DNA of 28,499 nt from a virus (IMGVR_UViG_3300034107_000967:1-28499); one strand, 5' to 3'. Numbered from the stretch's first letter, positions 9,488-28,499 are shown. Made by a program: numbers and translations. Notes: a model not told the origin generated them from the letters alone.

Positions 9488-10594
9488 TTAATTAAACACT
9501 GCTGTGGAATTTGATCCACTAACAAAAACTCCATTTATTAAATCATTAGGTCCACCGATTTGAGTAGAGAAACTCAATTCAACGGATTTATTTGATCCAA
9601 TGCTAGAAGAGAATGATTCACTATCAAGTGTGCATCCTTTTAAAGTCCAGATCATGCGATTAGTTGCTCCATCTGGACCTTTAAGTGTCAGGGTAATTGC
9701 TTTCCTAGATGAATCATTAATGATGTTAGCTAAATCAACAGCAGAAGTTTCATTTAAAATAGCTGAAACAGAAAGAGTTGCTTTAACTGGAAAGTCAACT
9801 GCTCTTGCATATGCAAATTTTGTTCCGAGTCTTTGAAGAGATGTTCTCGAAAGAGGAATGGCTAATGAAGCACTTTGAATATGTATTGCTTCGGACGATC
9901 CAGAAAGATCAGAAATTACACCACTATCAAAAGCAGCAATATCGATAGTAATATCGCCAGGTCTAAGAGCTGAGATAGCTGAAGCTCCAGTATTTGCTGG
10001 CTTCAAGAATCCTGTAAGTCCAAGCGATAATCCATCAGTTGGATTGATTGCTGGACTAGCAAAACCGCTAATTCCTCCACTAATAGTGGAAAATGCGGTA
10101 TCAGAATTAATATTAGAAGCTTCCATTGATACAGAAACAGTAGGAAGAGCGCCGACAGCAAGTTCCAACGAGTAATTACTCAAGAAAGCATTACCAACAC
10201 CAATAGCAGAAGATAAACTAGTAGCTCCAGTAGCATCTAAACCTTCAGCAACAGTTGTAATATAGAAATTTTGACCAGATTGATTTATCATGTGTCCAGA
10301 AGGGAAATTACCCTGTGCTGTGGCTCCAGTTTGGACATAAAAACCTAAAGCTCTCTCATTAAATCCATCAGTAAGATAATAAGTAAAATCAAGACCAACC
10401 GTAGGTGGTTCTAAGACAATAGAATCAATACGAGATAATTGACCATATTGGTTAATATCTTGACGATTGATTGTGAAATTATAGTTTGCGCTTTGAACTC
10501 TTTCAAGTTGCGCGTGTTGCCCAGATGCAGTAGAGGAAATTCCGCTGCTAACATAAAGTGCTTCCGATTGATAAATTACTCTGTTTCTTGCCAT
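9488..10594 (-). CDS. Major tail tube protein
   Basis: The protein has 368 residues and is beta-rich with almost no charged helices. It likely forms the hexameric rings of the tail tube. It is the last gene of the leftward block, where tube genes sit in siphovirus order. It shares a scaffold of motifs with two other genes in the window (23794-24615 and 25637-26875). These are an N-terminal ANYNFTINRQ segment, a YYLTDGFNERALGF-like strand, YSLELAVGALPTVSVSMEAS (residues 141-160), a middle segment SLAIPLSRTSLQRLGTKFA, and a C-terminal hydrophobic strand pair ending SVELSFSTQI. Ser/Thr/Ala/Gly-rich repeats around 170-230 may form an outward Ig-like or loop domain. The leader is A/C-rich and G-free next to the start. 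The tube call comes from position, size and fold style, not from a search. Confidence 0.72.
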   Translation of the reverse strand: MARNRVIYQSEALYVSSGISSTASGQHAQLERVQSANYNFTINRQDINQYGQLSRIDSIVLEPPTVGLDFTYYLTDGFNERALGFYVQTGATAQGNFPSGHMINQSGQNFYITTVAEGLDATGATSLSSAIGVGNAFLSNYSLELAVGALPTVSVSMEASNINSDTAFSTISGGISGFASPAINPTDGLSLGLTGFLKPANTGASAISALRPGDITIDIAAFDSGVISDLSGSSEAIHIQSASLAIPLSRTSLQRLGTKFAYARAVDFPVKATLSVSAILNETSAVDLANIINDSSRKAITLTLKGPDGATNRMIWTLKGCTLDSESFSSSIGSNKSVELSFSTQIGGPNDLINGVFVSGSNSTAVFN

Positions 10595-10622
10595 AATGGT
10601 GATTGTTTGTTTTGTTTACAGT
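10595..10622 (-). promoter_or_regulatory. CTGTAA element and A/C-rich leader of the tail tube gene
   Basis: On the minus strand CTGTAA (10616-10621) is followed by a G-free leader of AACAAAACAAACAATC type reaching the ATG at 10594. There is no Shine-Dalgarno. The element is a one-base variant of GTGTAA. Confidence 0.35.
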
Positions 10623-10647
10623 TATTTGTTTATTTTGTGAAAAATTA

Positions 10648-11493
10648 TTAATTTCTATATCTATGCTGTTGAATTTCAAAATCTATAAATCCGACATAAA
10701 TATCGTTAGCTAAAGATTTTCTTACTTTGTCAGTTAATTTTGAAGTGATTGCATTATTAATATAAAAATTAGTATTAATAGAAACTTGATTTTTTAAATC
10801 TGCATAAGAATAATAGCCAGATTTTAAATCGCCAAATTCATTAGTAGGATGATTCGACATAGGAATCATTGGAAATACTTCATTTCTAGAATCAGCGAAT
10901 ATTGATAAAACTCCATCTAGCTGATAATTATTTTCTGATAAAATTACGGCTTTTGCCGAAATGGTAGTTTCTTCCATCCCCCCTAATGCAAACCCCTTAT
11001 TAGATGCTCCGTCAAGTGATAGGAAAATGGCTGGTATTACTTGGTCGTATGGCGTGATATAATTTTCATCATTAAGGATGATGCGGGAATTTATATTATA
11101 TTTATTTTCAACAATGAGATCTTCTTCTGTTTCATTGGAAAAATATACATTAAAATCTTTAACCGCAAAACTTCCAGTTATTGGAGTTTGAGTAGATAAA
11201 CTTTTTGATAAAACTCTACCATTTTCAAAATCTAAAATTAAATTAGAATTTCTGCCAGAAAATACATTATTAGCGTAAATACCAGATGGGATTGTCGCGC
11301 CAGCAATTGAGCTATCATTTACCCATTGTTTATATGCGCTACCAAAAACTTTATATGTAGGATCAAATCTTTCATCATTATAATTAAAAAATGTTCCAGT
11401 AGTATTTGTGTATGCTTGACCTTTGGTTAATAAGTAATTATCAAACCATAGAAAAAAAGAATTAGTAAATTTATGATGAAATTGTTCGATCAT
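10648..11493 (-). CDS. Putative tail terminator / tail-completion protein
   Basis: This 281-residue protein is third in the leftward block. Its ATG overlaps the stop of the preceding 11490-12068 gene by 4 nt (ATGA), so the two are translationally coupled, and a 53-nt gap separates it from the tube gene. The N-terminus is aromatic-rich (FHHKFTNSFFLWFDNYLLTK) and may bury in a neck ring. The C-terminal part (ISINTNFYINNAITS-like segment, then KSLANDIYVGFIDFEIQQHR) is a plausible helix-strand unit of a ring-forming terminator. Function is deduced from gene order (stopper, completion, terminator, tube), since no signature residue is visible. A dedicated tail-tip or minor structural role is the main alternative. 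Confidence 0.45.
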   Translation of the reverse strand: MIEQFHHKFTNSFFLWFDNYLLTKGQAYTNTTGTFFNYNDERFDPTYKVFGSAYKQWVNDSSIAGATIPSGIYANNVFSGRNSNLILDFENGRVLSKSLSTQTPITGSFAVKDFNVYFSNETEEDLIVENKYNINSRIILNDENYITPYDQVIPAIFLSLDGASNKGFALGGMEETTISAKAVILSENNYQLDGVLSIFADSRNEVFPMIPMSNHPTNEFGDLKSGYYSYADLKNQVSINTNFYINNAITSKLTDKVRKSLANDIYVGFIDFEIQQHRYRN

Positions 11494-12068
11494 TTTAATT
11501 GAGAGAATTTTTTAGAATATTTATTTATAAGAGCAGATACGTATTGGGTGTTTTTGAAAGATCCACCCCTTATTTTTACACTAGATTGTATAGCTTCGCC
11601 CGATCTACTTTTAGATGATTTTCTTCTTAAAAGATAACCTAATCCAGAAATACCTTTTTCTACACCTTGCGCCCAACTTCTTCCAGAAGCCCACGGCATA
11701 GGTGTAACTGCAAAAATATCTTGTGGTGTTGGCATATTTATACTAAACTTACAGCCCATTGGAATTTCACCAACAAAAGTGACCTCAATAGATTGAAGTA
11801 TATTAATAATTGGGGCTATTGGATCATCTCCATCTTCAAATCCAATAAAAGCGAAAAGATTAGATACGCCATTTAAAGTGCCGCTTATATTGCTTGCAGT
11901 GGGGCCATTTTTAATTTCTTTAGTTACTGGATGATTTAAGAATTCATTTATTAGTTGAATCTTTATCAAAGCAAAATCTTGTTTGACTTTCTTTTCAAAA
12001 TCAATTCTTACGGCTTTTCCAACTTGTCTATTTAAAGCTTGCTGGACATCTAAAGGAAGGCTGGCCAT
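11490..12068 (-). CDS. Putative neck / tail-completion protein
   Basis: This 192-residue protein is second in the leftward block. It shares one base with the preceding stop (TAATG) and overlaps the next gene by 4 nt. The N-terminus is a long basic/amphipathic helix (ALNRQVGKAVRIDFEKKVKQ, then LIKIQLINEFLNHPVTKEI), followed by a Ser/Gly-rich loop NGPTASNISGTLNGVSNLFA. The middle has beta structure (LQSIEVTFVGEIPMGCKFSI), and a Pro/Trp segment MPWASGRSWAQGVEKGISGL precedes a basic tail (LRRKSSKSRSG). The length and helix-strand layout fit a HK97 gp10-like or neck completion protein between stopper and terminator. The specific family is not confirmed. Confidence 0.45.
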   Translation of the reverse strand: MASLPLDVQQALNRQVGKAVRIDFEKKVKQDFALIKIQLINEFLNHPVTKEIKNGPTASNISGTLNGVSNLFAFIGFEDGDDPIAPIINILQSIEVTFVGEIPMGCKFSINMPTPQDIFAVTPMPWASGRSWAQGVEKGISGLGYLLRRKSSKSRSGEAIQSSVKIRGGSFKNTQYVSALINKYSKKFSQLK

Positions 12069-12532
12069 TATTCATCAATGGGAGTTAAGTGGAAATGATA
12101 TAATTTGTTGCTTAAAAAGCCAGAATCAGTGCCTGGGCTTTTGATTGCAAAAATTCTTCCATCGATTCCTATTCTTTTCGCTTCTTTTATTGCGTTATAT
12201 GCGTCAGCAGTAACAACTATCCTAACAGATCCTTTCGGTAAAATAATTTTATTTTGAGAAGAATCTTGAGATCCTTCCTTAGCTAAGTATTCTTGATCTT
12301 CTTGAATATAATAAATTCTAGCATAATACTCTTCAACTACCATTTCATAATTAATATTTCCCCTGCTTCCAGAATTTGTTTTTCCATAAATTGAATTGTA
12401 ATTTGAGCTAGTAGAGATGACCGTTTTCTCTGCTTGTTTGTATACATAAATCTTTTTAGAGAATGTATCGTGCATTCTAGCGAAAGAACTTGAGATTCCA
12501 CTTAAAATATTTTCATTTAAATAGCTTGACAT
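12068..12532 (-). CDS. Putative head-closure (stopper) protein
   Basis: This 154-residue protein is the first gene of the leftward block, directly behind a GTGTAA element in the divergent intergenic region. The N-terminal part reads SFARMHDTFSKKIYVYKQAE, the pattern of small phage head-tail joining/stopper proteins in which a short helix leads into a beta-barrel that seals the portal channel. Later strands (NYEMVVEEYYARIYYIQEDQ, KIILPKGSVRIVVTADAYNA) and FAIKSPGTDSGFLSNKLYHF fit the barrel. Sequence support is moderate, and position strengthens it: adaptor before the block, then stopper, completion, terminator and tube inside it. The only comparable alternative is another small connector ring. 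Confidence 0.52.
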   Translation of the reverse strand: MSSYLNENILSGISSSFARMHDTFSKKIYVYKQAEKTVISTSSNYNSIYGKTNSGSRGNINYEMVVEEYYARIYYIQEDQEYLAKEGSQDSSQNKIILPKGSVRIVVTADAYNAIKEAKRIGIDGRIFAIKSPGTDSGFLSNKLYHFHLTPIDE

Positions 12533-14637: not shown

Positions 14638-14641
14638 TATT

Positions 14642-14648
14642 GGAGAGG
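14642..14648 (+). promoter_or_regulatory. GGAGAGG Shine-Dalgarno that decides the tape measure start
   Basis: GGAGAGG lies 9 nt before the ATG at 14658, a normal spacing. The TTG at 14640-14642 overlaps this site and is therefore an unlikely start. Confidence 0.7.
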
Positions 14649-14657
14649 TTTAAGGAC

Positions 14658-17600
14658 ATGCCAATTCAATTACCAACAGTACAGACAGGATTCGAAGCAA
14701 GTGTTGATGCCGCCAGACGAAAAATTGGCGCAATCAAGCTCGATGTATCACTTGACTCAAAACCAATTATAGATTTATCTCGCCCACTTGGTAAGCTTAC
14801 TGGGCAGGCAGACCAATTTACTCAGTCTATGGGAGCGGCAAATGCCCGTGTTCTTGCTTTCGGAGCTTCTGTCGGTGTTTTATCTGCTGTAACCGCAGGT
14901 TTCAATCAAATAATCACAACAACTATCAAAGTTGAAAAAAGTTTAGCTGATATTAATTCTGTTCTTCAGACAAATTCAGCAAATTTAAATAAATTTAAAA
15001 ATGATATCTTTAGTGTCGCAAAGGAAACTGGGAATTCATTTGATACTGTTTCTCAAGCTGCTCTTGAATTAAGTCGTCAAGGTCTTAAATCTGATGAGGT
15101 TTTAAGAAGACTCAAAGATTCTATGATTTTATCAAGATTATCTGGTCTTGATGCTGCATCTGCCGTTGAGGGCTTGACTGCTGCTGTTAACTCCTTTTCT
15201 AAAGAAGGTGTAACAACTTCAGACGTTTTAAATAAAATATCTAAAACAGCTGCTGCGTTTTCAGTTTCAGAAAGAGACCTTATAGAAGGCTTTAAGCGTT
15301 CGGCTTCAGTCGCACAACAAGCTGGAGTTAGTCTTGATGAACTAGGAGGTATTATTACTGCCGTTCAACAAAAAACCGCTCGCGGTGGGGCTGTTATTGG
15401 AAACGCTTTTAAAACTATTTTCACAAGAATTCAAAGACCAGATAGTTTAAGAGCTTTGCGAGATATTGGAGCAGAAATTACTGATGCTCAAGGAGGAATT
15501 CTACCAGCTACAAAATTAATTGAAAATCTTGCGGGAAAAATAAAAGGCTTAAATGATGTTGAAGTTGCGAGTATTACTGAAAAAATTGGTGGCGGCTTCC
15601 AAGTCGGCCCTTTAATCGCCGCTTTGGATGACCTTACTAGTAAGACATCTACTTTTAAAGGAGCTACTGAAGCTATGGCAACAGCTAGCAATGAAGCATA
15701 TAAAAGAAATACAGCATTAAATATTACACTTGAAAGCGCGATTAACAATACAACTGTAAGTTTACAGGAACTTGCTAATACTCTTGGAGAAATAGGAGTT
15801 ACAGATAGTTTAAAGAATATCTTATCGTTTTTTAATAGTTTTACCGCAAATGTTAAAGATGTTCTTCAAGGAGAGGGTCTTGGTTCTGATTTTGCGAAAG
15901 GACTTGTGAAAGGCATTAGTGCTGTGTTATCAGGACCAGGATTACTTTTATTTGGAGTAATTATTGGTAAGTTGGTGCTTAATTTTGTTCAATTTGGAGC
16001 TTCGGCAGTAAAAACGTTTTTTAATATTGGTTCTGCGGCAAAACAAATCAAAGAGATTGAATCGGGTATAGTTTCTACGTTATTAAATAACAAATCAATT
16101 CAAACTCAAATCCTCGCCTTAGAGGGTAATAGAGTAGCGCAATCGCAATTATTTTCCACCTCTTTGAATACTCAATTGGCGACGATGGAAAAAATGAAAG
16201 GCATTGCTGCATCAATTGCTCCTGATGTATTTATGGCCACAACTGGCAGTAAGAAAAGAAAGTCAGGAAACGCTGGTGGTTACATACCAAGTTCAGCTGG
16301 TGGATATATGCCGACAGTGATGGCTGAAGCTAATGATATTAGTAAAGGTGTTGGTGGGGCAAGACCGTCTGATAGGCCAGTTGTTATTCCTAATTTTGCT
16401 TTTGGTGGTGGCAAGACAGGAACAATGGTTGCTCATACTGGCGAACATATTGTTCCAAATTATAATGGAGGCAGCGGATCTGCTATCTTTAATAGAGATA
16501 TGGTTGGAAGAATGGGTCTTCCTAGTGGCGCACAAAAGATTCGTGGTGCTGGAGGATTTATTCCAAATTTTGCAGGAGTAAGAGGTGAAAGTAAAAAAGA
16601 TTTTAGAGAATCTTTAATTCTTACTCCAGAAGAAAAAAAATTAGTAGAGTTATTGGGAACTAGAATCGATCTTAGAGATCGAGATGAATTATTAAAAAAT
16701 CGTGTATTTAAGGATTACGGCACAGACAATTCAGGCAGACCCACTGAGTCAGGCACAAAAATTAAAACACTTTTACTTAATAAAATATCAAGTAAACAAG
16801 GAATAATAAAAGAAAAAAAAGAATCTAGTACTTTATTTATTGATGCAGATGCTAATTTAGGCGGTATCGGCGTAGTTTCTATAGTTGGTCCCAATAAAGC
16901 AACCGTTACTGAGAATATTACAGGGGGTAGTTTCGTGGGAAAGGCGAAAAATTTCGTAGATGATACTTATGGCGAAGACGAATATTCATCTATTCAAATG
17001 TCAAATATTAAATTACGCAATCTTAACAATTTAAAACCAGAAGAAGGTAAAAAAGATTTCAGAGCCAAAGTAAAAGAAAGATTTGCGACTCCTTTATATC
17101 AATTAGCTGGAGATATTTTACCCAATGTATTTAATGGGAAAAAAGCCGCCGATTACTCAGCTCAATTAAAAGCAGATCCTGCTTTGTTTTCTGATTCTGT
17201 GCTTGGAGGTATTTTTGAATCTGCTGTTAGAATGTCAACGACAGCGGTTGCAAACATGCAATCATTTAATGACAGTGATGATCAAGCACCATTTGACTTT
17301 GAAGGTGACGCAAATAGTGAAGCATTTAAAAAAGCATTCGGCTTTGAAGGAAATCTTTTTAGGGCCGATGCCAAACAAACAGCAACAGAAGGAACAGGGA
17401 AGAATATATCTAGCGTTATTAGTAAAGCTTTAAGAAATCCTGGAACTCAAGGAAAAATTATAGCAGCAAAATTAGGAACAGCAAGACCTGCGGCATCAGG
17501 ATATATTCCTAATTTTGTTGATCAAAAATACGTAATGGAAACACTCGGCAGAATAAAATCTGGCACAAGCGGATTCTCAAAACAAGAACAAGAAACATTC

Positions 17601-20600
17601 TTGAAAAAGTTCGGCGCAACTGGTGGAACTGGAAAAGGTATATCTTTAAAACAAGTATTTGATGACTTAGATTCTGACCCTTCTGTTTCTCCATTCATCA
17701 ATAAGGCGTATGGTGCTGCTGGAGCAACCGCATCAACATCGCAAGTATTTAAAGAGTTCGAAAGACAGACAAAAGCCAATCCAACACAATTAAGAAATGT
17801 AGTAAAAGGTAAAGGATTTATTCCTAATTTTGTTTCTAAATCAAGAGAGCTTGGGAGAGGAATACAAGGCGTATTTTATAAATTAGGGGAAAAAGATGGA
17901 ACTCAAGTTGGCGTTAAGAAATTTTATAAAGATGGTCCCAGTAAAGCGATAGAAGCGGAATGGCTTGTTGCTGAATTTATAAGCAAATATGCAAAAATTC
18001 CAAGTGTTTTTGGACCCAAAAATTTATCAACGCTTGAAGATTCAAAAAGAAAATTATCTATTAGAAAAGAAATAGTTTCTGATTCGTTAGCTAAAACTGT
18101 ATTAGGATCACAAGTTTCTAATGCATTTGGAAGTAGTGTTTTGTTTAATGCTCTTGGAGCTAGAGGTTTATCTATAGGAGATTTACATGGTTCAAACTAT
18201 ACAGTAAATAAAAATGCAGAAAATGCAATTAATGAATTAAAAAATTATCCTCAAAATCCTACTGGAGCATTTTCTACCTTAAGAAGCATGGCTTCATCTG
18301 GAGCAAAAATTGGTATTCTTGATCCTGGAGATGCTAAAGTTTCTGGCATAGCAAGAGATATAATAGGAAAAATCATTGCTGCACAACCAAAACAAAAAAA
18401 TGCTGCTGGAGGTTATATCCCTAATTTTGCTGATTCTGGAAACCAAGGACAAAGAATAACTCCAGCTCAAATAGCAAAAGGATTAGGAGCTGCCTTAGTT
18501 AAGATTTTAGTGGATCAGTATTTAGGGGACGGTGTTCTAGATGCGATAGAAGCTAGTGGATTAAAATCTTTGAAGGGTTCAGATATAAAAGCATTCGCTG
18601 GCGAACTACAGAAGCCAACTAAAAGTAAACATAAAAGAGCATTCGAAAGAGCTTTGATGTCTGACGCTGGAATGCAAAGACAATTTCCTCAATATTATAG
18701 TAGATTATTATCTGAATCATCTGATAGCGCAAGCGGTGGATTTATTCCCAACTTTGCCAATCCATTAAATGAAGCGATCTCAAGAGAGATCGGCGCAGGA
18801 GTTAATCCAAGTCAAGTATATATAGACCAAAGCAATTCCTTAAAAGGCCCAATGAATCCTTCTGGATTGATGGTTGCTAATCGCCGTGATGAGCCATCAG
18901 GAGGATGGCAGGGCATCAATAGGGCTAGAAAAGAAGGGGCCAATGCTAAAACTTATGGTGCGGCTAATGGGTTTATTCCTAATTATGCTGCTCAAATAGG
19001 ACAAGTCACAAGATCCGACTTGGGCAAAACTCAAATTAATGATCAAGCTGTAGTTGGTTTTAATAATTCTTTGAAAGCAATCTCAGATCAATTAAGAAAA
19101 GGAGCAATTTCTTTTACTGAAGCCAATTCACAAGTCAATCAGTTAGCTACTGTCACTGGCAAGACAAAAGCTCAAATAAACAAGCTTCAAGCTTCTGGAC
19201 AAAATTTAATAACAGGATACGACAACGAGCTTCAAGCAAGAAATCAAAAAGCAAAAGAGCTAAGATCTCAAAGATCTGAATCTAGAACGGCAAGATCAAT
19301 GGCTGAATTATCAGGGACTGCTAATTCAGCAGCATCTGGTCCTGATCCATTAGAAAAACCTAAAAGAGATTTTCTTGGAACTATCTTTGCTGTCCAAGCT
19401 GGATTAACTTTGTTAAGTGGGGCGACTGAGGGAGCAACAAATTCATTGGAAAAATATACAAATATTATTTCAGGCGGAATAGGCACTGCTACATCGACAT
19501 TATTTGCTTTCCAAGGATTGAGTTCACTATTACCAAAATTTGCTGGATTTTTGGGTCCAGCTGGAGTAGCAGTAAGTACATTGACTGCCGCATGGCAAGT
19601 CGGAACAGCAATTTATAACGAACAAGCAGGAGTAAATAAAATAGTAGCGCAATCTTTATCGAATGTTGCAGATGCGGCATCTAAAGCTAGTATTAATTTA
19701 GCTTCATTATCCAAGGGCGAACAATCAGATATCAAAAAGAAAGCAGAAGCCTCTGTCATGCAAGCTTTGGAAACTAGTGAAATGGTTAATGCTTCTCAAT
19801 CCAATGATTTTTGGACTAGGTTTGCAGCAACAGTATCTTCTGGTGGATCACTAACTGGATCAAGAGGTACTTTGCCGTCAGAAACGCAAGTCAAGCAAAC
19901 CGCAAGATTTGATACGGATGTTACTGGGGCATTAAAACAAAATTTATTTGATCTCCAAGCTGAAGCTTTAGGCGCTGGTGTTCCATTAGAAAAATTACAA
20001 GGAAAAATTAAAGAATTTGCTGGTGATTCAGTAATAACACAATTTGAAATATTAATGTTATCTCAATCATTTAGTAGTTTTATAGATGAAATTAAAAAAA
20101 CAGATAAAGCATTAAAAGAACTAAACTTGAATCCTCTTAATGGCATTGGTGCTAGTATTGCAGGAATGACAATAGAAGATGTCAAAAAATTTATCGATCC
20201 TCAAAAGAATATGACTGTTGAGGAAAGAGCATTAATGGCTGGATATAGCAAAGGGCCACAACAGCAAACTCAATATAAAACAGGACAAGACGGTAAGGCA
20301 TATGCTTTTACTCCAAAAGCACTAGAAGCGTATAATAAAAATCCATTAAAAATAGTAAAAGATGAATTAAAAAAGACAATGGGCGAAGGTCCACCTTTAG
20401 ATAAAAAATTACTTGAAGAAGCAACAAAATTAATTAATCTTCTCGCGGTAAAAACAGATGAAGCGGCTGACCAAGTTATAGCGATAAATCAGGAATATGC
20501 AACATTATTACTAAATTTAAAAGCCCAGCAAGCTTTTAAAGATAAAATACTGGAGTTGGATGATTCTTCTCTTAATTCTCAAATAGTATTGCAGCAAAGA

Positions 20601-23600
20601 ATTACTGGAATAATGAATGATCAATCGTTATCCGAAGAAGATAGACTTAAAGCGATTAAAAGGCTTGAGCTTTCTAATAAAGAAACATTATCCGATCTTA
20701 AACTTCAAGAACAAAAACTAATTGATATTCAAACTTTGGTGAATGATCTTTCAAAAAGTGACCTGTTTGAGTTTGATATTTCTACTAACCCACTTATGGC
20801 AGAAAATTTAAAATCTTCTTTTGCCAATGCGACTAAATATTTATCTCCAGAAAAAATAGAAAATTTAACTGACTTGACTTTATTAGCAAGACAATCATTA
20901 ACAAGCGCAGGCATAAAACAAGAAAGCCAAGGTTTTGATGCTAAAGTTGGTCAAGCTGCAATTTTTTTGAAGCAGACTCTCGATACTCAAGTTCAACTAA
21001 ATAGAGAAAAAGAAAAAGAAAATAAATTAAATAGATCAAATCTTACTGAAGAAGAAAAAAGATTAGAAAACACTAAATCTTTAGAAAAAGCATTTTTAAA
21101 AGTAAAAAATGCGGCAGATATTAAAAATCTTAGCACAAGTTTGACAAATATTGGACTACAAGGACAATCTGCTAGAGTTGATATTGAAAAACAAATGGAA
21201 TTGGCAAATCCTAAGACATTTGCTGGAGTCACAGATCCAAGAGAGTATTTAGCTATTCAGCAAAAAATAGAATTTGATGCGTTTGAAAGAAAAAGAAAAC
21301 TTGATTTGGAAATTCAAGTTAATCAAATTAAAATGGAAGCCGAAAGAGAGGCGACTACTATCGAAAATATCACAGCTCTTGGCCAAAATACAGAAGCTAT
21401 TAATAATTGGATTGATTCTCAATTAACAGCGCAAGCTAATGCGGCTGCGCTTGCGCCACTAGACAATGCTACTGGCGGTGGATCAATTAATGATATTATT
21501 GCCAAACAAGTCAAAGAGCAAGGTTTAACTAGCAAATTCACCAATAAAGAACAAAATTTAAAATATTTAGGATCGGAAACGGCGACAGATGAAAATGTAA
21601 TACAATTTCTAAAGAACTTGGCTTATAAAGAAAGTAGTTTTAATCCATCAACCACTTACCAAGAAAATTTTAATGATAGTTCGGGACAACCAGTTATTTC
21701 AACAGGTTTATTTGGGATTTCAAAAGAATCAGCTCATGGATATGGCAATTACGCTGCGACCAATGAAAATTTAAAAAATCCAGAATATAACACCAAAGTG
21801 GCAGTTGATATTATGGGCGAATTGCTTACTGAATCAAAGGGAATTATAGCTCAAAAAACTCAAAATGGATATGCTGGTGCATCAGCATATTGGGGTCCAC
21901 TCAGAAAAGGCGCATCAGATACCACTTCAATAGATTTATCAGGGCAAACCGAACAATTAAGATCCGAAGTATCAAAACAGGTAGAAGCTATTTCTAAATT
22001 AGATCCAAAACAAATGCAAGCTGCTGCCGAAAAATTTGCTATAGGTTTATATGGAGCAGGAGATCAAGCCAGCAAGTTTGCTGGAATGATTTCATCAAAA
22101 GCTGGTCAGATTAAAGAAGCTTCTGCGTCTTCTCAACAAAATAGAGAAACAGAAAGGCAAAAGTTACAAGCCGAGAGACAAGCACAAGCCCCAAAAACAT
22201 TTTCCCAAGGAATGGATGCGGCGTTTTTAAATATTAACGGACAATTATTAAATTTTAGCTATGAAATGGGTGAGAGAATACCTCAATCATTTGCTGATAA
22301 TATGGCTTCAGCTATGGAGGGCGTAATAATGCAGGGCGAAAGTTTGGGGGATTCACTTAGAAGTGCAGCTACTAGTTTCTTGAATGAAATCACAAAAGCA
22401 AATATTAAAAATTTCGCTAGCACACTCACTAGTGGAATTGGCGGCGGAATTGGAACTTTATTTAGAGCTAACGGAGGACCAATTACTGGAGGTTCTGGAA
22501 GTAAAGATGATGTTCCCGCCATGTTAATGGGCGGCGAATATGTCATGAATAAAAAAGCAGTCTCTAAATATGGAACGACATTCATGGAGGCATTAAATAA
22601 TGGTTCTGTTTCTGGATTTGCTGATGGCGGTTCTGTTATTAGATCAAGAGGGCTTGCTACTGATGTTATTAATAGTTCAAACGTTGGAGATCAAACTGGC
22701 GAAGGTGGATTCCAAATGCCTGGATATTATGGATCAGGAGCAATTACTGGAAAAAAAGATTTATTAGGCTACGCTTCTCAAGCGTATACTTCTGGGGCTG
22801 GAGATATTATTGGAGGAGGAAATGATTCTGCTTATATAGATCTTACTCCAGAAAGCGTTAGACTTACTAACTTTGGAAGAAATCAAGGGCCAATGGCTGC
22901 TGCTGTTAGAGAATCAAAAGAGCAATCTCTTGATTTATATTTTCAACAACTTGCTGCCGAAAAACAAGCGAAAGAAGAAGAAAAAGCCCAAAAGAAAGCA
23001 TTCAAAAAAGCCATAATAAATGCTCTAATTACATCAGCGGTAGGATCTGTTGTGGGCGCTGGAGCAGCTGGATTTAAAGCTGGAGTAATGGGAGCTGGAA
23101 AGGATGCTAATTTCGGACAAACGCTGATGGCTGGAGGAAAAGGTATAGTTACTGGTGGAGATATTGGTGGTGGGGTTATGGCTGGAGGCTTAAAGAATTT
23201 ATTTAGTGGGAATTATCAATTATCTCAGACTTCAGATTTAAAAGGATACCAACAATATTTAACTTCAAATCCAAAAGAATTAGAAAAATTTTTAGGTGGA
23301 TCAGCTTCAAGAAGCATAACTGGACCCAACGGAGGAGTTTTAAACGCTTGGTCACATGCGGGTACAGCTAACAGCGCATTAAAATATATACCTACGAGAG
23401 CTACTGGCGGCTCAATTCCTCAAACCTCTGGAATAGATACAGTGCCAGCTATGTTATCTGGCGGTGAATTTATCATGAATGCTGGAGCAACCCAAAGAAT
23501 TGGAGCCAGTAATCTTAATGCAATGAATTCTGGAGCTTCTACAGAAACTAGTTCTTCAGCCATTAATGATCAGCTTATCAATAAGATCGATGAGTTGATA

Positions 23601-23792
23601 AGAGTTACCAAAGAATCAAGCAAGCCCGTCACAGTCAATGTATCTTCGCAACAAGGACAATCTGGTGGAGATAATCAAGGAGAAGAAAACAAATCCGAAA
23701 AAGATCAAAATCTTTCTAGAAAAATTAAAGCAGCAGTTGTTCAAGTTCTTCAAGAAGAAAAAAGACTTGGAGGGGTTTTAAGAAGAAGTTAA
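14658..23792 (+). CDS. Giant tape measure protein with embedded enzyme-like modules
   Basis: The protein has 3044 residues from the ATG at 14658. It sets tail length and probably carries functions into the host. Domains in order: an N-terminal helical TP901-type tape measure core (about 20-320; for example SLADINSVLQTNSANLNKFK and FSVSERDLIEGFKRSASVAQ); hydrophobic helices near 425-450; and a motif-punctuated segment (543-1440) with copies of G-[FY]-I-P-N-[FY]-[AV], which includes a nuclease-like domain (about 640-945) and a kinase-like domain (about 1060-1250). A hydrophobic region follows (about 1575-1660), then long coiled coils (about 1880-2250), a lytic-transglycosylase-like domain (about 2310-2420), and Gly-rich C-terminal parts with two VPAML-x-GGE-[YF]-[VI]-MN motifs near 2615 and 2930. 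By the usual 0.15 nm per residue, the helical parts would span several hundred nanometres, though the inserted modules should not count. The stop lies 1 nt before the next start. Confidence 0.92.
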   Translation: MPIQLPTVQTGFEASVDAARRKIGAIKLDVSLDSKPIIDLSRPLGKLTGQADQFTQSMGAANARVLAFGASVGVLSAVTAGFNQIITTTIKVEKSLADINSVLQTNSANLNKFKNDIFSVAKETGNSFDTVSQAALELSRQGLKSDEVLRRLKDSMILSRLSGLDAASAVEGLTAAVNSFSKEGVTTSDVLNKISKTAAAFSVSERDLIEGFKRSASVAQQAGVSLDELGGIITAVQQKTARGGAVIGNAFKTIFTRIQRPDSLRALRDIGAEITDAQGGILPATKLIENLAGKIKGLNDVEVASITEKIGGGFQVGPLIAALDDLTSKTSTFKGATEAMATASNEAYKRNTALNITLESAINNTTVSLQELANTLGEIGVTDSLKNILSFFNSFTANVKDVLQGEGLGSDFAKGLVKGISAVLSGPGLLLFGVIIGKLVLNFVQFGASAVKTFFNIGSAAKQIKEIESGIVSTLLNNKSIQTQILALEGNRVAQSQLFSTSLNTQLATMEKMKGIAASIAPDVFMATTGSKKRKSGNAGGYIPSSAGGYMPTVMAEANDISKGVGGARPSDRPVVIPNFAFGGGKTGTMVAHTGEHIVPNYNGGSGSAIFNRDMVGRMGLPSGAQKIRGAGGFIPNFAGVRGESKKDFRESLILTPEEKKLVELLGTRIDLRDRDELLKNRVFKDYGTDNSGRPTESGTKIKTLLLNKISSKQGIIKEKKESSTLFIDADANLGGIGVVSIVGPNKATVTENITGGSFVGKAKNFVDDTYGEDEYSSIQMSNIKLRNLNNLKPEEGKKDFRAKVKERFATPLYQLAGDILPNVFNGKKAADYSAQLKADPALFSDSVLGGIFESAVRMSTTAVANMQSFNDSDDQAPFDFEGDANSEAFKKAFGFEGNLFRADAKQTATEGTGKNISSVISKALRNPGTQGKIIAAKLGTARPAASGYIPNFVDQKYVMETLGRIKSGTSGFSKQEQETFLKKFGATGGTGKGISLKQVFDDLDSDPSVSPFINKAYGAAGATASTSQVFKEFERQTKANPTQLRNVVKGKGFIPNFVSKSRELGRGIQGVFYKLGEKDGTQVGVKKFYKDGPSKAIEAEWLVAEFISKYAKIPSVFGPKNLSTLEDSKRKLSIRKEIVSDSLAKTVLGSQVSNAFGSSVLFNALGARGLSIGDLHGSNYTVNKNAENAINELKNYPQNPTGAFSTLRSMASSGAKIGILDPGDAKVSGIARDIIGKIIAAQPKQKNAAGGYIPNFADSGNQGQRITPAQIAKGLGAALVKILVDQYLGDGVLDAIEASGLKSLKGSDIKAFAGELQKPTKSKHKRAFERALMSDAGMQRQFPQYYSRLLSESSDSASGGFIPNFANPLNEAISREIGAGVNPSQVYIDQSNSLKGPMNPSGLMVANRRDEPSGGWQGINRARKEGANAKTYGAANGFIPNYAAQIGQVTRSDLGKTQINDQAVVGFNNSLKAISDQLRKGAISFTEANSQVNQLATVTGKTKAQINKLQASGQNLITGYDNELQARNQKAKELRSQRSESRTARSMAELSGTANSAASGPDPLEKPKRDFLGTIFAVQAGLTLLSGATEGATNSLEKYTNIISGGIGTATSTLFAFQGLSSLLPKFAGFLGPAGVAVSTLTAAWQVGTAIYNEQAGVNKIVAQSLSNVADAASKASINLASLSKGEQSDIKKKAEASVMQALETSEMVNASQSNDFWTRFAATVSSGGSLTGSRGTLPSETQVKQTARFDTDVTGALKQNLFDLQAEALGAGVPLEKLQGKIKEFAGDSVITQFEILMLSQSFSSFIDEIKKTDKALKELNLNPLNGIGASIAGMTIEDVKKFIDPQKNMTVEERALMAGYSKGPQQQTQYKTGQDGKAYAFTPKALEAYNKNPLKIVKDELKKTMGEGPPLDKKLLEEATKLINLLAVKTDEAADQVIAINQEYATLLLNLKAQQAFKDKILELDDSSLNSQIVLQQRITGIMNDQSLSEEDRLKAIKRLELSNKETLSDLKLQEQKLIDIQTLVNDLSKSDLFEFDISTNPLMAENLKSSFANATKYLSPEKIENLTDLTLLARQSLTSAGIKQESQGFDAKVGQAAIFLKQTLDTQVQLNREKEKENKLNRSNLTEEEKRLENTKSLEKAFLKVKNAADIKNLSTSLTNIGLQGQSARVDIEKQMELANPKTFAGVTDPREYLAIQQKIEFDAFERKRKLDLEIQVNQIKMEAEREATTIENITALGQNTEAINNWIDSQLTAQANAAALAPLDNATGGGSINDIIAKQVKEQGLTSKFTNKEQNLKYLGSETATDENVIQFLKNLAYKESSFNPSTTYQENFNDSSGQPVISTGLFGISKESAHGYGNYAATNENLKNPEYNTKVAVDIMGELLTESKGIIAQKTQNGYAGASAYWGPLRKGASDTTSIDLSGQTEQLRSEVSKQVEAISKLDPKQMQAAAEKFAIGLYGAGDQASKFAGMISSKAGQIKEASASSQQNRETERQKLQAERQAQAPKTFSQGMDAAFLNINGQLLNFSYEMGERIPQSFADNMASAMEGVIMQGESLGDSLRSAATSFLNEITKANIKNFASTLTSGIGGGIGTLFRANGGPITGGSGSKDDVPAMLMGGEYVMNKKAVSKYGTTFMEALNNGSVSGFADGGSVIRSRGLATDVINSSNVGDQTGEGGFQMPGYYGSGAITGKKDLLGYASQAYTSGAGDIIGGGNDSAYIDLTPESVRLTNFGRNQGPMAAAVRESKEQSLDLYFQQLAAEKQAKEEEKAQKKAFKKAIINALITSAVGSVVGAGAAGFKAGVMGAGKDANFGQTLMAGGKGIVTGGDIGGGVMAGGLKNLFSGNYQLSQTSDLKGYQQYLTSNPKELEKFLGGSASRSITGPNGGVLNAWSHAGTANSALKYIPTRATGGSIPQTSGIDTVPAMLSGGEFIMNAGATQRIGASNLNAMNSGASTETSSSAINDQLINKIDELIRVTKESSKPVTVNVSSQQGQSGGDNQGEENKSEKDQNLSRKIKAAVVQVLQEEKRLGGVLRRS
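16575..17498 (+). other. PD-(D/E)xK nuclease-like module inside the tape measure
   Basis: This is the 315-residue stretch between the IPNF motifs at 635 and 950. Near its C-terminal half it has a helix with E854 (LGGIFESAVRM), then APFDFEG with D880, then LFRADAKQT with D904 and K906. The order Glu(helix)...Asp...Asp-x-Lys and the 20-30-residue spacing fit the PD-(D/E)xK nuclease core. The N-terminal half (GTRIDLRDRDELL onward and IKTLLLNKISS) is a separate alpha/beta segment. The nuclease assignment is a residue-pattern reading, not a search result. Confidence 0.5.
17835..18400 (+). other. Protein-kinase-like module inside the tape measure
   Basis: This is the roughly 195-residue stretch between the IPNF motifs at 1055 and 1254. 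It shows kinase landmarks in order: a Gly-rich loop LGRGIQG (1065-1071), VGVKKFY with K1087 as the ATP lysine, EAEWLVAEFI as the alpha-C Glu helix, a catalytic loop IGDLHGSNY with D1175 and N1180, and ILDPGDAKV with D1222 in place of DFG. The GDLHxxN form is typical of aminoglycoside-kinase/RIO/HipA-like families. The domain is smaller than a full eukaryotic-type kinase. Confidence 0.6.
21585..21920 (+). other. Lytic-transglycosylase-like (SLT) domain in the tape measure
   Basis: The segment has YKESSFNPSTT with catalytic-type E2325, then STGLFGISKES, then NPEYNTKVAVDIM and YAGASAYWGPL. This is the Glu-Ser...G-L-[FM]-[GQ]-[IV]...N-P...N spacing of goose-lysozyme/SLT enzymes. It would cut peptidoglycan during DNA entry. 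Confidence 0.75.
22470..23520 (+). repeat. Two VPAML-GGE-[YF]-[VI]-MN motifs at the tape measure C-terminus
   Basis: The copy near 22470-22580 reads GGPITGGSGSKDDVPAMLMG then GEYVMNKKAV. The copy near 23403-23510 reads TGGSIPQTSGIDTVPAMLSG then GEFIMNAGAT. A more distant third form (MVAHTGEHIVPNY) occurs near 16430-16463. Similar GG...DDVPAML...GEYVM stretches are common in large phage tape measures. Confidence 0.7.
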
Positions 23793-23793
23793 T

Positions 23794-24615
23794 ATGTTCG
23801 GCGCAAAATTAAATGATGAATCCGCTCTGTGGATAGATGGGTATCAAATGACTGGAGTATCAGTCGCTGATACCTCCTATTCACATAGTTCGTCCACAGC
23901 AAATCCACTAGGATATTCAAATGGAGTAACCATATCTAATTCAGATTCTACAAAAAATATTTCAATAACTAGAGATTTACTGCTTACTAAAAAAACAATC
24001 TCAAGCGATTGGGAAGATTTCTTATTGCAGTATACTGGACTTACTGGAATCATGGGGGCCAGCATAAATTATGAAGGTGGCTCATACGGTTTTAATAGTG
24101 GATACATGACAGAATATATGTTGAATTTTGCGATTGGATCTATCCCAAAAGTCACAACAAATTTTACAATTTTTGATTCAATAATCAGCGGAAATGATTC
24201 ATCAAGCGCATATCCAGCTTTTTATGATTATTTATTACCTTATCAATCGGCCTGTAAGATTACATGTGATAACGCGACTTCTAATAGGGTAGTTGGTTTT
24301 GATTATTCTGTAAAAATAAATAGAAAACCCATATACTCTATAGGGTCTTCTTTGGCTGCTACAGTAGAATCTATTCCTCCGTTAGAGTATTCGGCATCTG
24401 TTCAAATCGAAATTGACGATGCGTTTCTGCAAAATTCACAAAATTTCCTAACAAATAAAGAAAATAAAAATGTAAGTCTGTCTATAGACTCAGATGTTAT
24501 TGGCGTTCCAGCAATAACATTTAATGTTCCAAAAGCAAGTCTTGTATCAGAACAACTATCTGCATCTGCTGATGGACTATTAAAATTAACCTTAAATTAT
24601 GTTGGACATTTATGA
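23794..24615 (+). CDS. Tail-tube-like protein (paralogue of the tube gene), probable distal tail
   Basis: This 273-residue protein starts 1 nt after the tape measure stop and overlaps the next gene by 4 nt (ATGA). It has the key landmarks of the tube gene at 9488-10594. These are YMLNFAIGSIPKVTTNFTIF (residues 108-127), matching YSLELAVGALPTVSVSMEAS in the tube; VVGFDYSVKINRKPIYSIGS, matching SLAIPLSRTSLQRLG; and a C-terminal KASLVSEQLSASADGLLKLT strand pair, matching the tube's last 30 residues. It lacks the tube's insert and is shorter. Directly after the tape measure, a tube-like ring would suit a distal tail hub or the last tube ring. Homology was judged by eye only. Confidence 0.55.
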   Translation: MFGAKLNDESALWIDGYQMTGVSVADTSYSHSSSTANPLGYSNGVTISNSDSTKNISITRDLLLTKKTISSDWEDFLLQYTGLTGIMGASINYEGGSYGFNSGYMTEYMLNFAIGSIPKVTTNFTIFDSIISGNDSSSAYPAFYDYLLPYQSACKITCDNATSNRVVGFDYSVKINRKPIYSIGSSLAATVESIPPLEYSASVQIEIDDAFLQNSQNFLTNKENKNVSLSIDSDVIGVPAITFNVPKASLVSEQLSASADGLLKLTLNYVGHL

Positions 24616-25637
24616 GTGAAGATCTTTTTTACAATAGAGATAGAAATATTTCTGGAATAACTGCTCCAGAAAACTTTTCTGATTTATCTTTAACTCCAGT
24701 ATATGGATCTAGAGTAGAGTATACATCAAAAATATTATCATACGAAACAGATGATTCATATAGTAATATTATCCCAGCTTCATTAAATAATTTATCAGTA
24801 TCTTATAAAGTTAGGTACGATGTAAATGAAGATAATTGCGCCAAATTAATAAATTTCTTTGAAAGCAAAGAGGGCCATCAAAGTTTTGTTTTTAATCCAG
24901 ACAATAGTGGAATTTACAAAAGCAATCAATCTTTCTGCGAAAATTATGCAGTTAATTATATTAATAATAATCATTATGAATTTGCCGTTGATGTATCAGT
25001 AGATCAGGCTCCTTCGTTTTTTAATTGGAAGTCTTCTTATTTTTTAAATTTTGATAGACCGACAGAAGGAATCCCGTGGAATTCTATTTATGTGAAATGG
25101 AAAGATTATAATACTGGTTGGTCAAATTTAAAAGTTTGGGCAACTGGAAATTCATATAAAAAATATGATATATTATATAATGACATCAATACAAATAAAT
25201 TAAATAATTTCTTCTATTGTAGCGGCGATCATTATAGCTCTAATTCTAATTCTCCAACTGGAGCTAGTTCTGCATGGAGTCAAGATTTCTTTTTTAGTCC
25301 AGATATAGGATTTCAAAATGATGTAAAAATACAAGTGTCTAAAGTTGATTTTAAAAACTCTTTCCCTCTAAGAATAAAAACAAAAAACAATACAGCAAAA
25401 TTTGATATAAATTACAAATTTAGTAATATAAGCAATAAGCAATTATTATGTATGCTCCACTTTTTAGAAAACAAAGCTGGGTATAGAAAATTTAGGCATC
25501 AAATACCAGCAGTATATAACAGGCCAAAAGTATACTATTGTCCGCAATGGACGCACACTTGGAAATATATAGATCATAACGATTTAGATGTGACTTTTAT
25601 TGAAGACCCATTAGGCATCATACCAACAGATACATAA
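24612..25637 (+). CDS. Distal/minor tail protein: two gpM-like domains around a carbohydrate-binding-like insert
   Basis: The protein has 341 residues. Domain one (about 60-131) runs LSVSYKVRYD ... KLINFFESKEGHQSFVFNP ... HYEFAVDVSVDQAP. Domain two (about 262-332) runs AKFDINYKFS ... LHFLENKAGYRKFRHQIP ... VYYCPQWTHTWKYIDHNDLD ... DVTFIED. Both have the lambda gpM/minor-tail pattern: strand, helix with FLxxKxG, short F-x-[HW] segment, then Y-C-x-x-W-x-x-x-W and a final strand, so the gene appears duplicated in tandem. Between them, residues 174-227 (LKVWATGNSYKKYDILY ... FYCSGDHYSSNSNSPTG ... SAWSQDF) resemble a CBM5/12-type module (W ... Y-x-x-x-D-I-V ... Y-x-C/A ... P ... W). It overlaps its neighbours as ATGA (4 nt) and TAATG (1 nt). 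Confidence 0.66.
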   Translation: MSEDLFYNRDRNISGITAPENFSDLSLTPVYGSRVEYTSKILSYETDDSYSNIIPASLNNLSVSYKVRYDVNEDNCAKLINFFESKEGHQSFVFNPDNSGIYKSNQSFCENYAVNYINNNHYEFAVDVSVDQAPSFFNWKSSYFLNFDRPTEGIPWNSIYVKWKDYNTGWSNLKVWATGNSYKKYDILYNDINTNKLNNFFYCSGDHYSSNSNSPTGASSAWSQDFFFSPDIGFQNDVKIQVSKVDFKNSFPLRIKTKNNTAKFDINYKFSNISNKQLLCMLHFLENKAGYRKFRHQIPAVYNRPKVYYCPQWTHTWKYIDHNDLDVTFIEDPLGIIPTDT

Positions 25638-26875
25638 TGAAAAAAAATATACTAAAAAGTAATTCATCATTTGTTGTAATAGGCAAATCGCCAGCATGGC
25701 TTCAAAATAATTTTGAAAGTGGCAGAATTTTTTCGTTAGCTCAAGCGGTGAATTTTGATTTTTCGTCTAATAGACAGGCTAGTAAACAATTAGGATATCA
25801 AAATTATTCAAGTAATATTGATTATAGAACTCCAGAAGTTAATTTATCAATAGATTATTATTTTTCTCCATCTTTAAATAATGAGTTGTTAATGGGTTTT
25901 AAAGAGTCGTCTGGATCTAATGCGACAAGTTTTAGCGGTTTTAAAAACAACAATTATAATTTTTATTTTTTCTCAAATGAAAACGAGTCTGCTGATGGAT
26001 TTGATGAAGTAAAAAAACCAGCAAACCTACAAAACTGGTCAGAGGGAGAAGTTATATCTTTTGGCAACTGTTATTTAACAAATTATTCATTATCTCTTGG
26101 GTTGGGGCAAGTTCCAGTTATTTCTACAAAATTTAAATCATCTAATATCGCAGCGGAAACATTAAATTCTGGAGGATCTACAAAAACTTATGTTCAAATT
26201 CCATCATTAGATCCATATAGTGGTAAATTAGCAAATGTAAATTATAATTATACTGGATTAGAATTTACTGGAGGAAATATTATTTATGATTGGGAGGCGA
26301 GGAGTGATTTAAATCCACCAATAGCTTTACCATATAAAAGTTCTGTTTCTATAATTAATCAAAGTGTCGATGATTCTCAATTGACTCCATTGAAAAATTT
26401 TTCAAATTTAATACTTCAGTCTTGTAATCTGAGTTTCGATTTCAATAGAGTTGATTTATATAAATTTGGAAATGATTCTGTATGTGATAGAAAATTACAA
26501 TTTCCAATAAATGCTAATATACAGATTGAATCTTTGGTTTCTGGATTTAATGCTAATGAATCGAATACTCAAAATAAATTAGGATCGGCAACATTAAATA
26601 ATAAAGAAAATATTTATGATATTGAATTTATTTTTAAAAACGATATAGAAACATCTACTGGTGTATATAATTTTCAAGGAGCGAAATTAACAAGTTTAAA
26701 CTATTCTACTCAAATAAATAATATCTATAAAATGTCAGCATCTTTTTCTGTAGAAATAACAGAAAATAAAGGATTCATAATGACTTCTAATGCATTTATA
26801 AAAGAGCCACTTCTTTATTTTGATACGAATTATAATTTATGGCAATCAGAACCATCGAACTGGAATTTTTCTTAA
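25637..26875 (+). CDS. Second tail-tube-like paralogue, probable distal tail / tip protein
   Basis: The protein has 412 residues and starts inside the previous stop (TAATG). It follows the tube gene's landmarks closely: AVNFDFSSNR (tube ANYNFTINR), an IDYYFSPSLNNELLMGF segment (tube FTYYLTDGFNERALGF), YSLSLGLGQVPVISTKFKSS (residues 150-169; tube YSLELAVGALPTVSVSMEAS), LSFDFNRVDLYKFGNDSVCD (tube SLAIPLSRTSLQRLGTKFA) and a closing TSLNYSTQINNIYKMSASFS pair. Longer loops account for the extra length. It is rich in Asn and Ser and very AT-rich, unlike the tube gene. Position before the fibre suggests a tail-tip or adaptor ring evolved from the tube protein. Confidence 0.6.
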   Translation: MKKNILKSNSSFVVIGKSPAWLQNNFESGRIFSLAQAVNFDFSSNRQASKQLGYQNYSSNIDYRTPEVNLSIDYYFSPSLNNELLMGFKESSGSNATSFSGFKNNNYNFYFFSNENESADGFDEVKKPANLQNWSEGEVISFGNCYLTNYSLSLGLGQVPVISTKFKSSNIAAETLNSGGSTKTYVQIPSLDPYSGKLANVNYNYTGLEFTGGNIIYDWEARSDLNPPIALPYKSSVSIINQSVDDSQLTPLKNFSNLILQSCNLSFDFNRVDLYKFGNDSVCDRKLQFPINANIQIESLVSGFNANESNTQNKLGSATLNNKENIYDIEFIFKNDIETSTGVYNFQGAKLTSLNYSTQINNIYKMSASFSVEITENKGFIMTSNAFIKEPLLYFDTNYNLWQSEPSNWNFS

Positions 26876-26895: not shown

Positions 26896-28499
26896 ATGAA
26901 TTTAGGCCCGACAAAAATTAGTGGAACTTATGTGTATGTTTTGAATCAAAGCGGGGCTAATGCTATTACATTAGGTAATGGTGCGTCAGTTGATTGGAAT
27001 GCTGGGGGAGTCGTTGATTTAGCTAGCGCACAAACTATTAATGGGATAAAAACTTTTAGCTCTACAATTGTTGGCAGTATTAATGGAAGCGCTGGAAGCG
27101 CTGGAACCGTAACTAATGGGGTTTATACAATTGGCGATCAAACGATTGGAGGATTAAAAACATTTACCAATGGATTAATTTCCAGCGTTGGGATTACAGG
27201 GACGAATTTAGTATATAATACTGGAGCACAAACAATCGGCGGATTAAAAACGTTTTCGAATGGATTGATCTCCAGCGTTGGGATTACAGGGACGAATTTA
27301 GTATATAATACTGGAGCACAAACAATCGGCGGATTAAAAACGTTTTCGAATGGATTGATCTCCAGCGTTGGGATTACAGGGACGAATTTAGTATATAATA
27401 CTGGAGATCAGTCTATTAATGGGGTCAAAGCTTTCGCTTTAAGACCCACTGTTAATGGAACTGGAGTTTTATTATCTGGAGAAGGTGGCGGATCATTGCC
27501 AACCACAATTGTTTATACGACTGGCGCACAAACGATTGGTGGCTCGAAGACGTTCAGCTCAACAGTAAACGCAAACATAACAGGTAACGCTGGAAGCGTT
27601 ACGGATGGCGTTTACATCACTGGAGCACAAACGATTACTGCATTAAAAACGTTTTCGAATGGATTGATCTCCAGCGTTGGGATTACAGGGACGAATTTGG
27701 TGTATAATACTGGAGATCAGTCTATTAGTGGAGTAAAAACATTTACCACTGGCATAATTTTACAGGCAGGAAATAATCAATTAAAATTTAGAACTGGTTT
27801 AGCAGGAAACACGATCAATATTACCGCTCCAACGATTACTAATAATGCGACATATACAATACCAGATTTTGGGCAGAGCGCAGCTTTTGTAATAACTACT
27901 GGGACGCAAACTGTTGGAGGAACCAAAAATTTCACAACAAGACCAACAGTTAATGGAACTGGAGTTTTATTATCTGGAGAAGGTGGCGGATCATTGCCAA
28001 CTACGGTTGTTTATACGACTGGAGATCAGAAAATAAGTGGAGTAAAAACGTTTGGTCAAAATAGCAATATTTATAATTCAACTAATTCTCAAATATTGGG
28101 CGGAATAAATAATACAATTTCTGGAGTTACTGGGGCCATAATAGTTGGTGGGTCTGGAAATTCAGCAAGAGGGAATTATTCTTTTGTCGGCGGTGGATTT
28201 ACTAATACAGCGAATAGAGATACTTGCTTTGTAGGTGGTGGGTTTAATAATGCAGCGAATGGATATCATTCTTTTGTTGGCGGTGGAGAAAGTAATGAAG
28301 CAATCAGCCTTGTTTCTTTTGTCGGTGGTGGATATAATAATACAGCGAGTGGACAGTCTGCTTCTGTCATTGGGGGAGATAGTAACTCAGCGAATGGAGA
28401 GTCTTCTTTTGTCGGCGGGGGCAATGGTAATATAGCAAATGGAACTTATTCTTTTGTCGGCGGGGGGATTAGTAATATAGCGAATGTAGATTATTCTTT
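26896..28499 (+). CDS. Tail fibre / receptor-binding protein with trimeric-fibre repeats (3' partial)
   Basis: The frame is open from ATG 26896 to the window edge (534 complete codons), so this gene continues beyond the window. It has two repeat types. First, about ten copies of a fibre repeat [ADT]-Q-[TSK]-[IV]-x-[GA]-x-K-x-F (for example GAQTIGGLKTFSNGLI), found in many phage tail fibres. Second, from about 28093, tandem 15-residue units of YadA-head/Hep_Hag type (FVGGGxxNxAxGxxS), which build left-handed trimeric beta-rolls. A Gly/Ser-rich junction LLSGEGGGSLPTT occurs twice. Such fibres end in a receptor-binding tip or a chaperone domain, which would lie beyond the window. The ATG is preceded by a GTGTAA element. 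Confidence 0.82.
   Translation, partial: MNLGPTKISGTYVYVLNQSGANAITLGNGASVDWNAGGVVDLASAQTINGIKTFSSTIVGSINGSAGSAGTVTNGVYTIGDQTIGGLKTFTNGLISSVGITGTNLVYNTGAQTIGGLKTFSNGLISSVGITGTNLVYNTGAQTIGGLKTFSNGLISSVGITGTNLVYNTGDQSINGVKAFALRPTVNGTGVLLSGEGGGSLPTTIVYTTGAQTIGGSKTFSSTVNANITGNAGSVTDGVYITGAQTITALKTFSNGLISSVGITGTNLVYNTGDQSISGVKTFTTGIILQAGNNQLKFRTGLAGNTINITAPTITNNATYTIPDFGQSAAFVITTGTQTVGGTKNFTTRPTVNGTGVLLSGEGGGSLPTTVVYTTGDQKISGVKTFGQNSNIYNSTNSQILGGINNTISGVTGAIIVGGSGNSARGNYSFVGGGFTNTANRDTCFVGGGFNNAANGYHSFVGGGESNEAISLVSFVGGGYNNTASGQSASVIGGDSNSANGESSFVGGGNGNIANGTYSFVGGGISNIANVDYS
27181..27406 (+). repeat. 90-bp tandem direct repeats in the fibre gene
   Basis: Units of 90 bp (30 residues) begin at 27181, 27271 and 27361. 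The first two are complete and identical, and the third is identical for its first 46 nt. A further near-copy of that 46-nt part occurs at 27670. All keep the reading frame. Confidence 0.9.
27451..28001 (+). repeat. 53-bp dispersed direct repeat in the fibre gene
   Basis: An identical 53-nt stretch at 27451-27503 and 27949-28001 encodes VNGTGVLLSGEGGGSLPT in the same frame. Together with the 90-bp repeats it makes this gene prone to in-frame recombination. Confidence 0.88.
28093..28499 (+). repeat. 15-residue YadA-head-like repeats (FVGGG-x-x-N-x-A)
   Basis: There are about nine successive units of 45 nt, each with GG and N-x-A/S near the start and S-F/A at the end, for example FVGGGFNNAANGYHS and FVGGGNGNIANGTYS. 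They are divergent at the DNA level, so this is an old repeat kept by selection on the fold. They run to the window edge. Confidence 0.85.

Follow-up and report, generated by a model that had tools for sequence, protein, structure and literature searches.

Why should the middle of a tail tape measure protein (TMP) be divided, by copies of one short peptide motif, into modules of unlike and often enzyme-like character? The question is raised by IMGVR_UViG_3300034107_000967, a 28.5-kb virus record with a G+C content of 34.7% and genes for head, tail, and fiber proteins. The record is probably a genome fragment, and all of it (28,499 nucleotides) forms the window analyzed here. The open reading frame (ORF) that hosts the array is a TMP by profile: it matches PF10145 above the Pfam cutoff (E = 1e-28) and the PHROG family for tail length tape measure proteins (phrog_4211; E = 2e-47), and it carries an SLT domain (Pfam; E = 2.5e-6). 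The features of this protein are collected in Table 1.

Table 1. Features of the tape measure protein and its module array in the window
Feature	Coordinates	Strand	Basis or remark
Tail tape measure protein (TMP), 3050 aa, array host	14640..23792	+	Pfam, PHROG
PhageMin_Tail domain, residues 127-318, within conserved N-terminal backbone	15018..15593	+	Pfam; query region of motif-blind search
Constant region ahead of array, with weak copies VVIPNFA (16380-16400) and IVPNY (16449-16463)	16317..16553	+	
Motif copy 1, GFIPNFA	16554..16574	+	
Cargo 1, PD-(D/E)XK-like nuclease module	16575..17498	+	E215, D241, D265-x-K267
Motif copy 2, GYIPNFV	17499..17519	+	
Cargo 2, short helical module, common to L005 only (96% identity)	17520..17813	+	
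Motif copy 3, GFIPNFV	17814..17834	+	Left half of L005 hybrid junction
Cargo 3, kinase-like module (VGVKKFY, GDLHGSNY, LDPGDA)	17835..18410	+	Sequence motifs
Motif copy 4, GYIPNFA	18411..18431	+	
Cargo 4, short helical module, no relative found	18432..18737	+	
Motif copy 5, GFIPNFA	18738..18758	+	Right half of L005 hybrid junction
C-cap, conserved polar module closing many arrays	18759..18968	+	AF2 model, pLDDT ~90
Motif copy 6, GFIPNYA	18969..18989	+	
Transglycosylase SLT domain, residues 2315-2417, C-terminal of cargo	21582..21890	+	Pfam

Six copies in the window TMP match the pattern G-[FY]-I-P-N-[FY]-[AV] exactly. The initial annotation had counted seven clear copies and two weaker ones. 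The six exact copies were confirmed, together with VVIPNFA as a seventh, off-pattern copy and a weak HIVPNY/IVPNY copy at the array entrance (about 16446-16466); a seventh exact copy was not. A VPAML-GGE-MN pattern, which occurs twice in the C-terminal part of the TMP, looks like a distant relative of the IPNF motif, as does the IVPNY at the entrance. Taken over 698 distinct contexts, the consensus is A-[AS]-x-G-[FY]-[IV]-P-N-[FY]-A, 10 residues long, with flanks that show no conservation. Synonymous codons differ among the window copies, as had been observed at the outset, and the same holds over a larger set: across 701 copies, most first and second codon positions have a base entropy of ~0, and the third position in codons for G, I, P, and A has one of 1.5 to 1.8 bits. 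With third positions free and first and second positions nearly fixed, selection therefore acts on the motif peptide, and the motif is maintained at the protein level.

The occurrence of the motif was surveyed by a pattern search of IMG/VR with three variants (GFIPNFA, GYIPNFA, and GFVPNFA) and with the reversed motif as a control. Each variant was present in at least 119 to 120 stretches, mostly clustered in TMP ORFs, compared with a total of 22 stretches for the reversed motif; motif abundance is far above chance. An ORF with at least two copies was found in 238 of the 308 viral loci examined, a set selected by the motif. Nearly all matches in cellular genomes were isolated single copies, and the single clear multi-copy array there (L146) belongs to a bacterial bin, in which it lies on a short contig. 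Since the motif itself had defined these sets, a motif-blind search was run whose only query was an alignment of the TMP N-terminal domain. Among the best 80 of at least 528 loci by score, a sample that more distant TMPs fall outside, all 59 relatives with enough sequence contained at least one copy and 56 contained at least two. Arrays are thus the rule in this TMP clade. In a set of isolated phages (50,697 records), tblastn with seven array or module queries gave no match, and the TMP N-terminal domain and the terminase gave distant matches. As to the host, searches of 344 and 374 genomes surrounding two bins with phage contigs gave no further match.

Within the clade, the array is the part of the protein that varies. 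In 55 complete TMPs, it starts at residue 531 to 650, extends over 217 to 996 residues, and is followed by a C-terminal part of 939 to 1912 amino acids; its length has a CV of 0.44, compared with 0.06 for the N-terminal part and 0.14 for the C-terminal part. Motif spacing is irregular, ranging from <40 to >1000 residues. The usual layout runs from an N-cap through cargo modules to a C-cap. Among 172 multi-module arrays, the C-cap stands last in 104 (mean of 37.6 and maximum of 56 in 2000 shuffles) and the N-cap stands first in 54 (mean of 22.1 and maximum of 35 in 2000 shuffles).

The initial annotation proposed to examine whether the domains between conserved motif sites differ from phage to phage, and they do, with DNA breakpoints at the motif. 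Otherwise near-identical TMPs vary in which modules they carry, how many, and in what order. Cargo differs in 24 of the 29 TMP pairs whose N-terminal parts share at least 90% identity, a comparison in which near-identical records are counted repeatedly and some arrays are cut or only partly read. Relative to L005, L006, and L010, the window is mostly 80 to 100% identical upstream of motif 1; after that motif, the cargo is different or missing, and the C-cap is again 80 to 100% identical. Breakpoints were defined as the internal ends of blastn alignments in the array region, which were made without reference to the motif. Such DNA breakpoints lay at most 9 nucleotides from a motif in 118 of 146 cases, compared with 8.5% of random positions, a descriptive number given that the pairs are partly related. 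One junction can be followed at the nucleotide level. Copy 3 of the window has the sequence AAAGGTAAAGGATTTATTCCTAATTTTGTT and copy 5 has GCAAGCGGTGGATTTATTCCCAACTTTGCC, and L005 has AAAGGTAAAGGATTTATTCCCAACTTTGCC at the corresponding site. The L005 junction combines the left part of copy 3 with the right part of copy 5, and the exchange point therefore lies inside the motif. In these comparisons, DNA similarity begins and ends at or within the motif.

The module order proposed for the window (nuclease-like, helical, kinase-like, helical, and polar) proved correct, with the kinase label read from sequence motifs only. Cargo 1 fits a PD-(D/E)XK nuclease by its conserved E, D, and (D/E)xK. Its residues E215, D241, D265, and K267 (TMP residues 860, 886, 910, and 912) are present in 96%, 99%, 66%, and 100%, respectively, of the members that have these columns, and E215, D241, and K267 are invariant in 23 close members of the nuclease module. 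Cargo 3 is kinase-like in that a lysine, a catalytic loop, and a metal-binding D motif are present; VKKF, DLHGxNY, and DPG are invariant in 4 homologs, and the module has a dN/dS of 0.16. Profile searches with cargo 3 gave no Pfam or PDB-sequence match, and modeled alone in AF2, it reached a pLDDT of 35.6, which is not usable. Searches of the window's own modules against Pfam and PHROGs returned nothing useful, and PDB sequence searches with the window nuclease and kinase profiles and one kinase-like module from a relative returned no match. The window nuclease (16575-17498) has a dN/dS of 0.49 to 0.66 against its nearest relatives, compared with a median of 0.15 for other modules; this faster evolution might be that expected in an arms race.

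An AF2 model of residues 560 to 1470 (41 alignment rows; mean pLDDT of 60) places all motif copies in or at the edge of segments with a pLDDT of <50. Between motifs lie the cargo 1 nuclease, with a pLDDT mostly of 80 to 95 over most of the domain, and the C-cap (~90). Copies 3 and 4 border the poorly modeled kinase-like region, where low pLDDT is weak evidence. The model thus places the motif copies outside confident domains and not within single folded domains, the outcome that would have refuted the initial annotation. Foldseek and VIA-align searches with the whole-array model gave nothing meaningful (best Z score of 3.2).

From 240 array-bearing ORFs, 512 distinct modules were cut, and single-linkage clustering yielded ~98 clusters, of which 34 have at least two members and the majority have no assigned type. 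The largest cluster is mixed, with nuclease columns in ~86% of its members and a P-loop pattern in 23. Matches above the Pfam cutoffs include a GNAT domain (4e-7), an SNase domain (2e-9), and a HIGH-nucleotidyltransferase-associated domain (3e-8); an HSP90-type ATPase (GHKL-like) module scored 5e-5, which is under the cutoff and suggestive. HAD-like (DWDGT), ART-like (YRG...S-x-[ST]), HExxH, and several kinase-like modules are more tentative assignments, as they were read from motifs only. PADLOC returned three weak single matches for the module representatives. In 147 module pairs (cargo and some N-cap pairs), dN/dS had a median of 0.15 and a maximum of 0.48; purifying selection acts on the cargo and on its catalytic residues. 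In one relative (L057:4886-6145), a single cargo module combines a P-loop segment with a cytidyltransferase-like domain (HIGH_NTase1_ass; 3e-8), which suggests nucleotide- or NAD-related chemistry in the cargo.

Our preferred reading, to which we assign a probability of roughly 0.7, is that the TMP bears an exchangeable enzyme array that is probably delivered at infection, with the motif acting as both connector and exchange point. TMP residues ~640 to 1450 would hold independent, often enzyme-like modules, preceded by a constant N-terminal domain and followed by a long C-terminal part that contains a putative peptidoglycan lytic domain. The C-terminal end of a TMP is located at the tail tip. 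When the TMP exits the tail at infection, as we propose, the wall would be opened first by the C-terminal lytic SLT part and the cargo would enter the cell afterwards, because the SLT domain is C-terminal and the cargo lies nearer the N terminus. Inside the cell, nucleases and host- or signal-modifying enzymes would act on defenses or host functions. The motif may serve as a connector that interrupts helices and has a fixed partner or a fixed local conformation, and such a Gly/Pro/Asn connector would let each unit thread through the tube and refold independently. Since every module ends in an identical connector, arrays could recombine in frame at the motif, and microhomology may aid exchange there. 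Docking to a tail protein or cleavage is a possible role of the motif. A nuclease produced in active form late in infection should put the DNA of the phage itself at risk, unless its activity is kept in check.

The case for delivery to the cell comes solely from the biology of TMPs, which occupy the tail channel and exit it at infection. The lambda TMP was labeled close to an inner-membrane protein while the genome was being injected (PMC13190303), and for a gene transfer agent, ejection of the TMP together with the DNA has been proposed (PMC7296036). A more far-reaching version is that, in an uncultivated phage clade, the TMP is a general multi-enzyme vehicle whose 10-residue universal connector is recognized by a tail or host component. 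We hold this version tentatively, with the odds somewhat against it; if it is true, a protein inserted between two copies would be carried and delivered.

Could the motif instead be a protease site, with the TMP a polyprotein that is cleaved at every copy, either as the virion assembles or once it has entered the cell, to release its enzymes? To our knowledge, the motif is unlike any known phage processing site, and an array-linked protease was not identified. On the other side, the site is short and strongly conserved, lies in apparent linkers between folded units, and has no conservation outside it, and P1 DdrB and DarA are packaged multidomain phage proteins that can be processed (PMC5512222). 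We judge cleavage at each copy to be rather unlikely. The concentration of breakpoints at the motif and the one junction inside it would also fit a motif that is mainly a DNA-level recombination site, that is, a cassette boundary with an incidental peptide. However, a DNA site would conserve bases, whereas here third codon positions vary freely and amino acids are fixed; this codon variation already mostly refutes the idea, and we consider it improbable.

Two further readings deny the modules an active role or a separate existence. If they were structural tail parts, such as lumen fillers or ruler spacers, their enzyme folds would be inactive relics, and the array is indeed the most length-variable section of the protein. 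In TM4 Tmp, removal of an embedded domain of 114 residues shortened the tail by ~20 nm (PMC1796659); embedded domains can therefore belong to the ruler, presumably extended in the tube. Yet catalytic residues are kept at 96 to 100%, and the presence of unrelated enzyme classes in one slot is needless for length tuning, so that a purely structural role appears distinctly improbable. The remaining reading is that an ordinary TMP repeat has been misread and that the modules lie within one fold. Short repeats are frequent in TMPs, and VPNF/VPAML-type patterns occur elsewhere in the window TMP. We give this reading very little credence, as spacing is irregular, inter-motif content is unrelated across relatives, and the motif lies outside confident AF2 domains.

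The idea of a delivered, exchangeable array is already known in parts, from polyvalent proteins, TM4-type embedded domains, and polymorphic toxins. The polyvalent proteins of phages and of conjugative elements (Iyer et al. 2017, PMC5512222) likewise combine many unrelated catalytic domains in one large polypeptide, which is thought to be coinjected with DNA, and ART and GNAT domains have been reported in them (PMC7824862), as GNAT and ART-like modules occur in the present arrays. Similarly disparate activities are predicted here, with nuclease and kinase-like modules in the window and GNAT, SNase, and NTase modules in relatives. The present arrays differ in having a TMP as scaffold, an internal position of the cargo, and a single peptide motif between all modules; neither "linker" nor "PNF" occurs in the text of Iyer et al. 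The mt3 domain of TM4 Tmp (Piuri and Hatfull 2006, PMC1796659) is also a TMP-embedded catalytic domain, dispensable for viability and aiding infection, but it is one wall-degrading domain, and the parts of that paper cited here do not describe a motif-bounded array or exchange among many classes.

Polymorphic toxins, including the MuF family of temperate phages (PMC3482391, PMC5576092), also join a constant delivery part to exchangeable enzyme modules. Their variable part is C-terminal and paired with an immunity protein, whereas the present array is internal in the 55 complete TMPs and multiple, usually ends in a C-cap, and has >900 TMP residues after it. The TMP-related effectors of contractile injection systems (PMC11126660, PMC13277306) are alike in that a TMP-like protein is a carried effector, but they belong to a bacterial nanomachine and are not an exchangeable enzyme array of a phage. 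"Tape measure" together with GFIPNF was absent from the open-access literature searched, which mostly leaves out subscription journals and bioRxiv. Within that literature, there appears to be no description of a TMP with an exchangeable enzyme array punctuated by a motif. Searching with one motif can bring to light a large hidden set of probable early-infection effectors, and any sequence between two motif copies is a candidate anti-defense or takeover protein. Because related phages differ by single enzyme modules, the fate of TMPs after ejection becomes directly testable.

Other features of the window lie outside the TMP. Four minus-strand genes (9488-12532), probably tail or neck genes, interrupt the otherwise plus-strand structural region. 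The TMP region is flanked by paralogous proteins encoded at 9488-10594 (minus strand) and 25637-26872 (plus strand), with 25% identity over 350 residues (E = 2e-20); 23794-24612 shows similarity to this pair over 31 residues only. A probable tail-fiber gene contains a nearly perfect 90-bp tandem repeat in 3 copies (27139-27406) and, at 28175-28499, ~7 copies of a 45-bp SFVGGG-type repeat that runs off the end of the record.
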